Below are positions 23,246 to 33,436 of a DNA stretch of 64,000 nucleotides, in pieces. Source of the DNA: an uncultured Micrococcales bacterium (lineage in GTDB: Bacteria > Actinomycetota > Actinomycetes > Actinomycetales > Microbacteriaceae). Under the pieces are notes generated by a model. That model saw only the letters and a list, made by a program, of their open reading frames with translations. It was not told the origin of the DNA and did no database searches. A program made the position numbers and the translations under genes. The stretch covers positions 1 to 64,000 of the forward strand of contig CAJXZO010000004.1 in NCBI GenBank assembly GCA_913062975.1, in the 5' to 3' direction. Within the stretch, counting starts at the first letter, position 1; each line of letters starts with the position of its first letter.

Positions 23246-23280
23246 AAGGGGTGAGTCAGCCTGCAAGGCGCTCGCCCCTT
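23246..23280. terminator. Hairpin between the Bax1-I gene and dnaE2, probable bidirectional terminator
   Basis: Arms AAGGGGTGAG (23246-23255) and CTCGCCCCTT (23271-23280) pair over ten positions with one G-T. A smaller inner stem CCT/AGG sits within the loop. A short T run follows on the plus strand. The hairpin lies 14 bases after the Bax1-I gene and includes the dnaE2 stop codon, so it could end both convergent transcripts. Confidence 0.6.
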
Positions 23281-26200
23281 TCCCACTTAATCCAGAGCTG
23301 ATTTAAGTCCCAGGCATTTTCGGCAAGCACGGAAACCCCTTTTTTGCCAGTTCTCCTAAGCTTTCCAGAAATCAAAAGCAGGCGATTGTTGAATAATAAA
23401 TCAGCACATTCTTTCTGAGCTTCATCAAAAAAGGTGGCATCGGCACAACCGGTAGAGTCATCAAGACTTATAAACACAACCCTTTTCCCGCTTTTCATTG
23501 GTGGCGTTTGAGTGGCGACCCTAACTCCCGCAATCAGCACTTCCGTGTTTCCGCGAAGACTAGATAGTTCGTTTGCTCTGGAGACTCCGAGTGAATCCAG
23601 CATGGGTTGGTATTTATCAAGCAGGTGACCGGTAATGTCCATGCCGGTGAGACCAATTTCATAATCAATTTGTTCTTCGGTTGAGACCTGCTGATTGCCA
23701 GATGGCAATGTTTCCACAACATTGAAATTCAGCTCCTGCTGGGTGCCGTTAATTTTTGGTGCGGGCTTGGTGGTTATCTCACGTATCTTTTGCATCAAAT
23801 CACCTCGGGTTGCATTGGTGGCCAACGAATCCAATGCCCCTAGAGCCGCTAGTCGAGTTATGGTTTTTCTAGATGGCCTGGCTTTTTTATAAAAGTCTGC
23901 AAGGTCTGCAAAGGGTGCAGACTTGATGATTCTGGAAACCTCGGGTGCACTAATTCCTGCAACTTCGGTAAGTGCCATCCTTACTCCCTTTTTTGACTTT
24001 TCTATCTCCACTCGGTATTCATCGGTTGATTTGTTTACATCAATTGCCAATAGATCAACACCAAGACGCCTGGCTTCAGCCAACAAAAGCCTTTTGGGAT
24101 ACATGCCCGGATCATGAGTTAGCAAGCCTGCAATAAATTCAGCTGGGTAGTGGGTTTTCAGCCAAGCTGACTGATAGGTCGGAAAAGCAAAAGCGGCACC
24201 GTGGGCTTTGCAGAAACCAAAGCTTCCAAAGCCCTCCAATACTTTCCAGACCCGATTGACAACCGATATTTGATAGCCACGAGCCAGTGCACTCTGTTTG
24301 AAATAAGACTGAATTTTCTCGCTTGCATCGGGTTTAGCCATCTGCCTTCTTAGTTCATCTGCCTTGGCCAGGGTGCAACCGGTCATTACCTTCATGATTT
24401 TCATCAGCTGTTCATGAAATACGACCACCCCATAGCTCTCTTCAAGAATTGGCTTCAAATCTGGATGGAAATAATCTGGCTGAATAAATCCATGCCTCCC
24501 ATCCAGGTAGGGAGAAATCATGTTTCCCTTCATTGGACCCGGTCTGAAAAGCGATATTTGCAAAGTCAGGTCATTGAATTCAGTTGGTTGGTGCTTGCCG
24601 GTTAGCTCTCTTTGGCCGGGGCTTTCTATTTGAAAAATGCCCAGAGTGTTGGTAGTTCTAATAAGTTCAAATACGTCCTTGTCATCAGTTGCTACCGAAT
24701 CTAGGTCTAGTTGCTTATTTTCAACTCTTTCTATTTCCCTCACCGCATAGGCCATGGTGCTCTGCATTCTCACTCCAAGCACATCTAGTTTCAAAAAACC
24801 CATCGGATCCATGTCATCTTTATCAAACTGACTCATCGGTAATCCCAGACCACTTGGTTCGGTCGGGGTTAGTTGCAGCAACCTGCTGTCTCCGAGGACC
24901 ACCCCACAGGGATGCATTGAGATATGCCGGGGGAGACGGTCAAGCCTCTGGGTTAGGTCCACCAGTAGGTTTAGCTTTCGATTTTTTTCAACTTGACTTG
25001 CAACTCTGGCAAGTTCTGGCTTCATCTCCAGTGCCGCCCTAAAGCCAGCAGCGCTAAATCTCCAGGAGCTTTTAGCTATCTGGTCTATCTGATCCTCATC
25101 TAACCCAAGAGCCATCCCGCTGTCTCTTATGGCGCCACGACCTCGATATGTTGACTGCATTGCTAACAGCGTTACTCGGTCACCGCCGTAGCGCTTGAAA
25201 ATGCTTCTATAAATGTCATGTCTTCTGGCTGATTCAACATCAATGTCTATGTCTGGAAGTGTTGAGCGTTCGGTGGATAAAAATCTTTCAAACAGCAATC
25301 CTTGCGAGATTGGATCGATGTGACTTATGCCAAGCAGATAATTCACCAAAGAACCAGCACCTGATCCGCGTGCGGCAATGCGTATGCGCATGTCTCTAAT
25401 CATTTGAGCCACATCCGCAACGGTTAGAAAAAAGGTTGCAAAGCCAAGCTTGTTGATTGTTATCAGCTCTTTTGAAAGTTGATGTTGAACCTCTGTGACC
25501 AAGCTGGGTTTTGCATCCGGATAGCGAAAATTGATTGCCGAGTGGGTTTTTTGCCACAGCACTTCAAAGGGGTTCCCATCTATGCCTAAAAGGTTTTTTT
25601 CTGGTGTTTTTGGATTCCCCCAATCGCAGTCTTCAACTGGGCTCAATCGACACCTGTCGACTAGCTGTTCGGTGGTGGCGATTAACTTCTTAGCCAACTT
25701 GGTTTGCTGCGTGATTTCCAGTGCCAGTGAAAACATCTCGGCTGCTGGCTTAAGCCAAGCCTGGGCATTTGGTTGAGGCAGGAAAATGCCAAGTGGCTCT
25801 AAAAACCTTGCCGAATCCAGAACATCGGCGGTCAGTGCATCGTCAGGCTGCAGGTACCGAGCGGCATTGGTTAACACAGCAGGTATTTTTTTATACTCGG
25901 CAACGGAGACAAGTGATCTAGCGTGCTCTACCGAGTATTTGGAGCCAGGTTCGGTCAGGTGGGTAAAAACCTCTATGGCTAGGCTTCCACGGGTGCTGAA
26001 GTGACTAAGCCACTCATCGGCCAATCTCGAGGCTGTGGCGGGATCTGAGAGTAGTGTCTGACCAACATCACTGTCTGCACCGAGCAGCACCGTGCAATTT
26101 GCCACTTCCTGCTGAGTGAGAGATGCAAGCTCAGCTCTGTCAATGGAGGGTGGTTGGTTTTTCTTTTTCTGATGAGCCTTGCTGACAATTCGAGAAATTG

Positions 26201-26480
26201 CGCTCCAGCCCGCTCCTCGATTGTGGCCGTGGGCGAGAATAACCACTCTGCCAAGTGATTTTCCATCGTGGACTTCAAGGTTGACTCCAATAATTGGATC
26301 AATTTTGTTTTCAATGCAGGAACCTATGTGTTTGACCGCACCGTAAAGACCGTCTCTGTCGACTACTGCCAGAGCATCAAAGCCAAGACTTTTTGCAAAC
26401 TCAACGGCCTGTTTTGGTTTATTTACCCCATAGTGAGCAGAGTAGGCGGAGGCAAAATTTAGATGTGCAAATCCGGTCAC
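23256..26480 (-). CDS. dnaE2: Error-prone DNA polymerase III alpha-type subunit DnaE2 (ImuC)
   Basis: C-family polymerase used for translesion synthesis and induced mutagenesis. The frame opens at a GTG at 26504, but the GTG at 26480 overlaps the TAG stop of DUF6504 (TAGTG) and yields the actinobacterial DnaE2 start MTGFAHLN; this gives 1074 residues, short for DnaE1. The PHP domain is degenerate (AHLNFASAYS and VVDRDGLYG instead of His-rich motifs). Polymerase aspartates are kept: PDIDID at 409-414 and Asp566 in LKLDVLG. Finger, HhH and C-terminal OB regions follow. An SOS box precedes the two-gene unit. No imuA or imuB is next to it. Confidence 0.88.
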   Translation of the reverse strand: MTGFAHLNFASAYSAHYGVNKPKQAVEFAKSLGFDALAVVDRDGLYGAVKHIGSCIENKIDPIIGVNLEVHDGKSLGRVVILAHGHNRGAGWSAISRIVSKAHQKKKNQPPSIDRAELASLTQQEVANCTVLLGADSDVGQTLLSDPATASRLADEWLSHFSTRGSLAIEVFTHLTEPGSKYSVEHARSLVSVAEYKKIPAVLTNAARYLQPDDALTADVLDSARFLEPLGIFLPQPNAQAWLKPAAEMFSLALEITQQTKLAKKLIATTEQLVDRCRLSPVEDCDWGNPKTPEKNLLGIDGNPFEVLWQKTHSAINFRYPDAKPSLVTEVQHQLSKELITINKLGFATFFLTVADVAQMIRDMRIRIAARGSGAGSLVNYLLGISHIDPISQGLLFERFLSTERSTLPDIDIDVESARRHDIYRSIFKRYGGDRVTLLAMQSTYRGRGAIRDSGMALGLDEDQIDQIAKSSWRFSAAGFRAALEMKPELARVASQVEKNRKLNLLVDLTQRLDRLPRHISMHPCGVVLGDSRLLQLTPTEPSGLGLPMSQFDKDDMDPMGFLKLDVLGVRMQSTMAYAVREIERVENKQLDLDSVATDDKDVFELIRTTNTLGIFQIESPGQRELTGKHQPTEFNDLTLQISLFRPGPMKGNMISPYLDGRHGFIQPDYFHPDLKPILEESYGVVVFHEQLMKIMKVMTGCTLAKADELRRQMAKPDASEKIQSYFKQSALARGYQISVVNRVWKVLEGFGSFGFCKAHGAAFAFPTYQSAWLKTHYPAEFIAGLLTHDPGMYPKRLLLAEARRLGVDLLAIDVNKSTDEYRVEIEKSKKGVRMALTEVAGISAPEVSRIIKSAPFADLADFYKKARPSRKTITRLAALGALDSLATNATRGDLMQKIREITTKPAPKINGTQQELNFNVVETLPSGNQQVSTEEQIDYEIGLTGMDITGHLLDKYQPMLDSLGVSRANELSSLRGNTEVLIAGVRVATQTPPMKSGKRVVFISLDDSTGCADATFFDEAQKECADLLFNNRLLLISGKLRRTGKKGVSVLAENAWDLNQLWIKWERGERLAG

Positions 26481-26764
26481 TAGATTATTCGCACCAACTT
26501 CCACTCATCTTCTGGCAAGTTATGCCTGAGTTCAAAAACTCCACCCTCAGATTCATGATGAGCTCTGACTCGCCACATCTCGGTCTCGACCAGTTGCGGA
26601 CCAATTCCCTTGGGTGCTTGACCTGCTTCCGTCCACCAGCTTTTGCGGGCATACCAGCGCACCGGGGAACCGCTTGCTAGATAGCTGGAACCTCGCCAAT
26701 CTATGGAAATTGGCTGACCATCGTGGTTGGTTACAACTGCCACCGACTCATCGACTTGAATCAA
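26480..26764 (-). CDS. DUF6504 family protein of the actinobacterial mutasome cluster
   Basis: A 94-residue soluble protein without membrane segments or recognised catalytic motifs. Visible features are GQPISIDWRG, a Trp/Tyr-rich centre (RWYARKSWW) and a C-terminal RVRAH...GVFELRH segment. It matches the small DUF6504 proteins that accompany imuB and dnaE2 in actinobacteria. TTG at 26764 is preceded by GGGGAG (26770-26775, minus strand), and the SOS box lies immediately before that. The stop overlaps the dnaE2 GTG by one base. Function unknown; context points to DNA damage tolerance. Confidence 0.82.
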   Translation of the reverse strand: MIQVDESVAVVTNHDGQPISIDWRGSSYLASGSPVRWYARKSWWTEAGQAPKGIGPQLVETEMWRVRAHHESEGGVFELRHNLPEDEWKLVRII

Positions 26765-26775
26765 TTAATCTCCCC

Positions 26776-26799
26776 TTATTCGAACATTTGTTCGAATAA
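26776..26799. promoter_or_regulatory. SOS (LexA) box controlling DUF6504-dnaE2
   Basis: A perfect inverted repeat, TTATTCGAAC-N4-GTTCGAATAA with spacer ATTT, contains the complete actinobacterial/Gram-positive LexA operator core TCGAAC-N4-GTTCGA. It ends directly at the GGGGAG ribosome binding site of DUF6504 (minus strand), a position where LexA would cover the promoter and start point. It is also downstream of the SRAP gene, which is read in the same direction. This is the only perfect copy I saw in the window. Confidence 0.95.
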
Positions 26800-26832: not shown

Positions 26833-27504
26833 TTAATCGAACAGCTTTTGATCTGATTCTGGCTTTATTAACCCTGGGTGGTTATTGCTGACCGAACCGA
26901 CTGATTTGTTCACTTCATAAAAACTTAATTTGCTAGCAATCCGGTCTGATTGGTCGGCAATGCTTGAAATGAGCTGTTCTGGTTTTGCCTCGGAGTCTAG
27001 CCACTGATTCAAATCTTCCAGCATTACCGGGTTTCTGTCGTGAATCTGTTCAATCTCTGCTGCCGATTGCTTGGTGACAATGCTGAAACTTGGCAGATTG
27101 TTACTCAGCGGGCTTGCTGGCTCATAAATTGCAGCAAATAACAGCAATTTATTTGAATGAATGAAAACCGGTTGCTTGCCAGTTGCAAATTGCTTCCATT
27201 CGAAATAGCCACTGGCTGGAATCACCGCCCTTGATTTTCTGACTGCATTTCGAAAACTTGGTTTTTCCAAAATGGTTTCAATTCGAGAGTTGATTAGGGG
27301 AGTCTTGGGGGGTTTATCAGCCCAATGTGGAACCAGACCCCAGTAAGCATCCGTGAGCAGTCTGGAATCGGACAGCAAAAGCATTGGAACTTGCTGAGTG
27401 GGGGCAATGTTAAAGCTAGGAAGCTGGCCCTGAAAGTTATTCTCAGCCTCGAGCTCAGATGCAAGCTCGTTGCTGGTTTTTGAGAGAACGAATCTTCCAC
27501 ACAT
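26833..27504 (-). CDS. SOS response-associated peptidase (SRAP/HMCES/YedK family)
   Basis: SRAP proteins crosslink through Cys2 to abasic sites in single-stranded DNA and protect them. The 223-residue protein begins MCGRFVLS, so Cys2 is present after removal of Met. The substrate-pocket motifs follow: APTQQVP near residue 35-40, an ASGYFEW segment with the catalytic glutamate, and a histidine in the EQIHDRNPVML region. It lies upstream of the SOS-controlled unit but in front of, not behind, the LexA box. It is two bases from dedA and probably shares that promoter. Confidence 0.93.
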   Translation of the reverse strand: MCGRFVLSKTSNELASELEAENNFQGQLPSFNIAPTQQVPMLLLSDSRLLTDAYWGLVPHWADKPPKTPLINSRIETILEKPSFRNAVRKSRAVIPASGYFEWKQFATGKQPVFIHSNKLLLFAAIYEPASPLSNNLPSFSIVTKQSAAEIEQIHDRNPVMLEDLNQWLDSEAKPEQLISSIADQSDRIASKLSFYEVNKSVGSVSNNHPGLIKPESDQKLFD

Positions 27505-32873: not shown

Positions 32874-33436
32874 TGGAGTTATATGAAAAAGCCAAGCAAC
32901 TAATTGCATCAACCAGCAGGCTGAAATTGGCACTGTTTGCATTGGTCGCAGTGCTCATCGGCTGGATTCTTTGGCCCAGGATGGAAACTGAGCAACTTCC
33001 TCAGCCGGTTGCCCAAGCAGAGACATCTCAGTCGTCCGCAACTATCAGCATTCACGTTGTTGGTGAGGTGCTCACCCCTGGGTTATATCAACTAAAGCTT
33101 GGAAGCCGGGTCAGCGATGTAATTGACATGGCGGGAGGTTTTAGTGAACTTGCCAGCACCCAAAGTGTTAACCTGGCCCGAATATTAGTTGATGGTGAAC
33201 AGCTGGTCGTTTCATCCCAACAGGTTTTTGCAGAAGAACAAGATTCGAAGATAAGCATCAATGGGGCAACGGTTGAAAAACTGGATGAACTGCCAGGTGT
33301 TGGCCCATCGATAGCTGCCAAAATAATTGACCACAGAGAGAAAATCGGCAGATTTCGCTCAATCGAACAACTGGTCGAGGTGAGTGGAATTGGTTCAAAG
33401 ATGTTGGAAAACATCAAGGAATTGATCCGTCTTTGA
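32873..33436 (+). CDS. comEA: ComEA-type competence protein, DNA receptor
   Basis: ComEA binds double-stranded DNA outside the membrane and hands it to the ComEC channel. The 187-residue protein has one N-terminal membrane helix (about 18-36), an SLBB domain (about 55-105) and a C-terminal double helix-hairpin-helix DNA-binding domain (about 125-187) with the motifs LPGVGPSIA and VSGIGSKM. The start is GTG without ribosome binding site. The stop overlaps the comEC TTG start (TTGA), so the two are coupled. Confidence 0.92.
   Translation: MELYEKAKQLIASTSRLKLALFALVAVLIGWILWPRMETEQLPQPVAQAETSQSSATISIHVVGEVLTPGLYQLKLGSRVSDVIDMAGGFSELASTQSVNLARILVDGEQLVVSSQQVFAEEQDSKISINGATVEKLDELPGVGPSIAAKIIDHREKIGRFRSIEQLVEVSGIGSKMLENIKELIRL

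Follow-up and report, generated by a model that had tools for sequence, protein, structure and literature searches.

The DUF6504 and dnaE2 genes on the minus strand of the window (the whole 64-kb stretch of DNA that was analysed) appeared to form a real and conserved two-gene unit under SOS control. The locus probably encodes an error-prone polymerase of the DnaE2B-[ImuB-C] type that consists of two proteins and is induced by the SOS response; this polymerase would tether itself and would have no Y-family partner. The two-gene unit corresponds to a module that Timinskas et al. had already predicted in 2026 (PMC12926913). What appears to be new here is its retention in a clade lacking any Y-family protein, a clamp-binding-like motif in DnaE2 resembling that of DnaE1, and the presence of tractable hosts. 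The features of the locus were as follows:

23256..26480 (minus strand): DnaE2-type error-prone C-family polymerase, clade A (DnaE2B), assigned from domain matches, a subfamily model and the tree
23724..23741 (minus strand): QQELNF, a clamp-binding-like QxxLxF motif in the HhH-OB linker of DnaE2, which is disordered
26480..26764 (minus strand): DUF6504, 94 aa, TTG start at 26764-26762, with a PF20114 match (28.8 bits) and a match to the ImuB C-terminus profile
26776..26799 (minus strand): LexA (SOS) box with a 16-base core at 26780-26795, a perfect TCGAAC-N4-GTTCGA palindrome
26833..27504 (minus strand): SRAP (HMCES/YedK-like) gene, PF02586 183 bits, directly upstream on the same strand

The gene order on the minus strand was therefore SRAP, LexA box, DUF6504 and the DnaE2-type polymerase. 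A first-pass annotation of this DNA had reported a perfect LexA box abutting the ribosome binding site of DUF6504, and this was confirmed: the core TCGAACATTTGTTCGA lay at 26780-26795, just ahead of the gene, and the ribosome binding site AAGGGGAG (26777-26770) preceded the TTG start. Simple arithmetic on the twelve fixed bases gave approximately 0.004 such cores expected by chance per 64 kb. The reported coupling of DUF6504 to the polymerase was also seen, as the TAG stop codon of DUF6504 overlapped a GTG, the probable DnaE2 start, in the string TAGTG. The open frame of the polymerase extended further, to 26504; homologues begin near the residue given by the GTG (M-S-F-T-H-L), so an extent of 23256-26480 with the GTG within TAGTG as the start is likely. 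Inspection of the neighbouring genes agreed with the annotation that imuA and imuB are missing from the locus; besides the SRAP gene, the neighbours were a gene for a VTT-domain protein, pabC/pabB-like genes and a Bax-inhibitor-like gene. Of 19 related loci from small genomes, 13 had SRAP 400 bases or less upstream of DUF6504, on the same strand; in Arthrobacter relatives SRAP often lay farther upstream, at 1-3 kb. It is a frequent neighbour and possibly a functional partner in abasic-site handling, and can be considered only a candidate member of the DUF6504-DnaE2 unit.

Nearly all related loci also had the LexA box upstream of DUF6504, and in most of them it was perfect or had one mismatch. 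The genome from which the window derives encoded LexA, and actinobacterial boxes were present at DUF6504 and, in near-perfect form, at lexA (C1:18454) and recA (C1:26115). As lexA and recA also carry near-perfect boxes, a small SOS regulon consisting of lexA, recA and the DUF6504-DnaE2 operon is likely. Another near-box in the window, at 33363-33378 and with one mismatch, was inside a ComEA-like frame and was taken to be a chance match. A search of G017 (genus g16), a near-complete small Microbacteriaceae genome of 0.9 Mb in a single contig, found no Y-family domain, DUF6504, clade-A DnaE2, LexA DNA-binding domain or near-perfect SOS box; this genome has apparently lost the whole SOS system.

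The PF20114 score of DUF6504 was above the Pfam gathering cut-off of 24.2. A wide alignment of DUF6504 matched the last ~120 residues of ImuB end to end, scoring 24.2 in one direction (E 8e-4) and 26.6 in the other (E 2.5e-4), while the best score among the controls (other ImuB slices, the reversed ImuB C-terminus and DnaE slices) was 15.9. This match is weak per sequence and required both the wider alignment and the C-terminal slice of ImuB; a small DUF6504 alignment against full-length ImuB gave only E 0.08. An AlphaFold2 model of DUF6504 was all-beta with a pLDDT of 87 and was of high confidence outside one loop. A fold search of this model against the PDB returned nothing at E below 0.001, which is consistent with the 2026 survey of bacterial polymerases, where ImuB-C is described as a beta-barrel with a novel fold and without close relatives in the PDB (PMC12926913). 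DUF6504 thus appears to be a free-standing relative of the ImuB C-terminal domain, and we infer that it is the same as the ImuB-C set of that survey. A literature search for DUF6504 found no paper. The family also occurs outside DnaE2B loci, as one gene (L155, 11450-11743, minus strand, G030) with its own perfect LexA box preceded an ImuB-DnaE2 cassette belonging to the other DnaE2 clade. Several larger genomes carried two DUF6504 copies.

Analysis of the polymerase revealed PHP, DNA_pol3_alpha, DNA_pol3_finger, HHH_6 and OB matches. Its best subfamily model was the error-prone NF004225, with a score below the cut-off of that model. The polymerase aspartates were invariant in all 136 sequences aligned, and the PHP site residues were altered (D to Y, H to R) in DnaE2 of the window type; intact polymerase aspartates together with an altered PHP proofreading site point to a DnaE2 error-prone polymerase. 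Family and class searches separated DnaE2 sequences into two score bands, one of at least about 40% identity and the other of about 31%. A tree of 104 sequences, with replicative DnaE1 as the outgroup, placed the DUF6504-linked polymerases, including that of the window, in a single clade (87 rows, support 100), here called clade A, and the ImuB-linked polymerases in a separate clade (10 rows, support 100). Seven genomes of the ImuB-linked clade were checked and held weak-scoring ImuB-type IMS genes, mostly beside dnaE2. The first-pass annotation had taken the cassette to be one that normally holds imuA and imuB, with ImuB tethering DnaE2. This does not apply to the window, whose polymerase belongs to the other clade; because there are two DnaE2 clades and that of the window travels with DUF6504, nothing was dropped from an imuA-imuB-dnaE2 cassette. 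A degraded cassette of the mycobacterial type was rejected on the same tree. The g11 sequences grouped with Rhodoluna records and the g14 sequences with Aquiluna IMCC13023, and the two genera are named here, from tree position, as members of the Luna-1 group of small-genome aquatic Microbacteriaceae. Three public records labelled Deltaproteobacteria (L027), Bifidobacterium breve (L070) and Streptomycetaceae (L072) had DnaE2 loci that fell inside Aquiluna-like or acI-like clades, so these labels are probably wrong.

The pair in the window appears to be of the DnaE2B-[ImuB-C] kind, as its DnaE2 lies outside the ImuB-associated clade, an ImuB-C-like protein adjoins it and no ImuB was found. According to the survey (PMC12926913), DnaE2B polymerases are found in genomes that lack ImuA and ImuB, one actinobacterial group (e.g. 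Arthrobacter alpinus) is linked only to ImuB-C, DnaE2 is typical of fairly large genomes, and AlphaFold complex models are reported for its own module examples. The Arthrobacter alpinus example, like the locus described here, has a DnaE2 from outside the ImuB clade beside a free-standing ImuB-C-like protein, and Arthrobacter loci (e.g. L030-L042) carried the same DUF6504-DnaE2 pair as the window. The present case differs in that a whole genus group, with genomes of about 1.1-1.7 Mb, lacks any Y-family polymerase; the clamp-like motif of DnaE2 and the SRAP neighbour are also not described for the group in the main text of the survey. The mycobacterial ImuA'-ImuB-DnaE2 mutasome (PMC10421592) shares with this locus SOS control, a DnaE2-type C-family polymerase and an equivalent of the ImuB C-terminus. 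It differs in having the polymerase-like body of ImuB, and hence the ImuB clamp motif, whereas the window encodes a DnaE2 of a different clade with a clamp-like motif of its own. With ImuB not found and DnaE2 outside the ImuB-linked clade, the locus is not an ImuA-ImuB-DnaE2 mutasome.

The genome of the window is 1.14 Mb in 32 contigs and 79% complete, and therefore the absence of ImuB and Y-family polymerases rests on its relatives. The first-pass annotation had proposed a search of the complete genome and a comparison with related small genomes. The former recovered lexA with its box and no IMS (Y-family) domain in the 79% complete assembly; the latter revealed DUF6504 and a close DnaE2 in 12 of the 12 g1, g11 and g14 genomes tested, with the LexA box conserved. 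The two genes were adjacent in these genomes, except in one draft where they were on separate contigs. No Y-family domain was found in genus g1 (0/3 genomes, the window's genome and two relatives), genus g11 (0/67, 22 of them with a completeness of 90% or more and a contamination of 5% or less) or genus g14 (0/23, 14 by the same limits). In total, 93 genomes from the three genera were searched, and 36 of these reached at least 90% completeness. A sample of 250 Microbacteriaceae genomes contained a Y-family domain in 234, and the negatives included every sampled g1, g11 and g14 genome. A second profile, built from ImuB in this analysis, had no match in 13 small genomes (12 of g1, g11 and g14, the window's included, plus G017), so that absence was checked by two different profiles. 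As a control, the ImuB profile gave 615-687 bits in three ImuB-linked genomes, and in nine larger clade-A genomes it gave only 92-124 bits, from DinB-like open frames. These results point to a small-genome clade lacking the Y-family polymerase that is retained by other carriers of DnaE2B. Of the two options that the first-pass annotation had left, ImuB encoded elsewhere was not borne out by either profile, while a reduced two-component mutasome working with DUF6504 was supported.

Clade-A DnaE2 was often followed by a DinB-like gene, as in acI/Nanopelagicales, Intrasporangiaceae and others, and Streptomyces-like genomes had a degenerate Y-family gene in this position; no Y-family gene was present within the clade-A loci of Micrococcaceae and Microbacteriaceae. 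The acI/Nanopelagicales and Intrasporangiaceae loci have the same DUF6504-DnaE2 order as the DnaE2B-[ImuB-C]-PolY-RecA type of the survey (PMC12926913; Tessaracoccus lapidicaptus), and differ from the window in that an apparently active DinB-like gene follows directly. In a few of the Streptomyces-like genomes that have clade-A DnaE2, an ImuB-like gene was also present at another site, so the exclusion between clade-A DnaE2 and ImuB appears strong but is not total. In other lineages DnaE2B is coupled either with DinB or with a Y-family protein that is inactive, RecA has been proposed to take part in those complexes (PMC12926913), and SRAP is often located upstream. This would fit a hidden partner (RecA, SRAP, PolA2 or a strongly degenerate remnant of the Y family) that supplies the missing ImuB functions. 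We consider this unlikely, though it is the best of the alternatives: neither of the two profiles detected a Y-family domain in the small-genome clade, and the survey itself includes a DnaE2B group whose only link is to ImuB-C.

Alignment of the HhH-OB linker of clade-A DnaE2 revealed strings such as QLSLPL, QLALPL, QLPLF and QPMLDF, with QQELNF in the window. A strict clamp-like pattern was present in 97 of 136 clade-A linkers, compared to 18.9 expected after shuffling, and nearly all of the matches aligned with the column occupied by the motif of replicative DnaE1 (QVDLF/QVGFDF). QxxLF is the general clamp-motif consensus, and QLSLPL is the peptide with which E. coli Hda binds the clamp tightly (PMC12309361). 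The QQELNF linker was disordered in the predicted DnaE2 model (pLDDT below 70), so that the window carries a motif of the QxxLF or QLxLxL type in an accessible segment, as a beta-clamp client would at the sequence level. In the ImuB-linked clade the strict pattern was found in 8 of 31 sequences, all from Microbacteriaceae, and the ImuB-linked sequences fetched from other families had no strict motif. The proposal that only clade-A DnaE2 has a clamp motif was dropped, as QPPLF-like strings are present in Microbacteriaceae DnaE2s that have ImuB. Several small-genome members lacked the strict motif and carried SLFY or ALFY (L010, L014, L126), SALDF (L125) or APTLDF (L013), so the Q of the motif is not indispensable; these five loci form a natural test series for clamp binding. 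From the position and conservation of the motif, DnaE2 most likely holds the clamp itself, with DUF6504 as its subunit. The converse arrangement, in which DUF6504 is the clamp adaptor that replaces ImuB as tether, could be suggested by a small, co-induced protein that adjoins DnaE2 throughout the small-genome clade. It is very improbable, as the conserved residues of DUF6504 were W, P, R and G with no conserved QxxLF-type motif (alignment A1) and the clamp-like motif is located in DnaE2.

Two further alternatives have almost no probability left. A split cassette, that is, an ordinary mutasome in two pieces with imuA and imuB elsewhere under their own SOS box, could be hidden by a contig missing from the incomplete assembly, and in some genomes of the other DnaE2 clade ImuB is indeed 15-20 kb from dnaE2; it is nevertheless refuted for the relatives by the 93 genomes without an IMS domain (36 of them at least 90% complete, with low contamination), the 13 without an ImuB match, the position of the polymerase outside the ImuB-linked clade, and the near-perfect SOS boxes recurring among relatives, which mark lexA, recA and DUF6504. 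Genome reduction, and the absence from the clade of Y-family genes that most of the family has, might suggest a decaying, functionless remnant, but the polymerase aspartates are all invariant, the open frames are intact, the LexA box is perfect in most members and both genes are kept throughout the clade.

A self-tethered two-protein polymerase would operate as follows. DNA damage would activate RecA and LexA would leave its box, as the sequence parts of the regulation suggest, and DUF6504 and DnaE2 would be produced together by translational coupling at TAGTG. DUF6504, the equivalent of the ImuB C-terminal barrel, may dock on the inactive PHP domain of DnaE2, a placement based on homology and on published ImuB-DnaE2 models. 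DnaE2 would reach the beta clamp by its own QxxLxF motif, making ImuB unneeded, and in the small-genome clade it would act without any Y-family polymerase, as the sole polymerase of the usual translesion families (Y-family and DnaE2). The chances are about even that this streamlined aquatic genus group runs its entire SOS mutagenesis free of Y-family polymerases, with DnaE2 on the clamp by a DnaE1-like motif and the detached ImuB-C as its sole partner.

ImuB is regarded as the hub through which DnaE2 is recruited to the clamp, and its clamp motif is essential for mutasome function in mycobacteria (PMC10421592). In a natural lineage that keeps DnaE2 and the ImuB-C-like subunit and has neither ImuB nor any other Y-family polymerase, what each part contributes can be told apart; if the reading given here is true, the polymerase-like body of ImuB would be dispensable for DnaE2 function. 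Rhodoluna lacicola, of the same genus group, can be transformed naturally and its genes can be inactivated (PMC11577799), so the two-protein question can be tested in a simple background. The small-genome, freshwater-type actinobacterium of the window would offer an unusually bare and testable form of the predicted two-protein mutasome.
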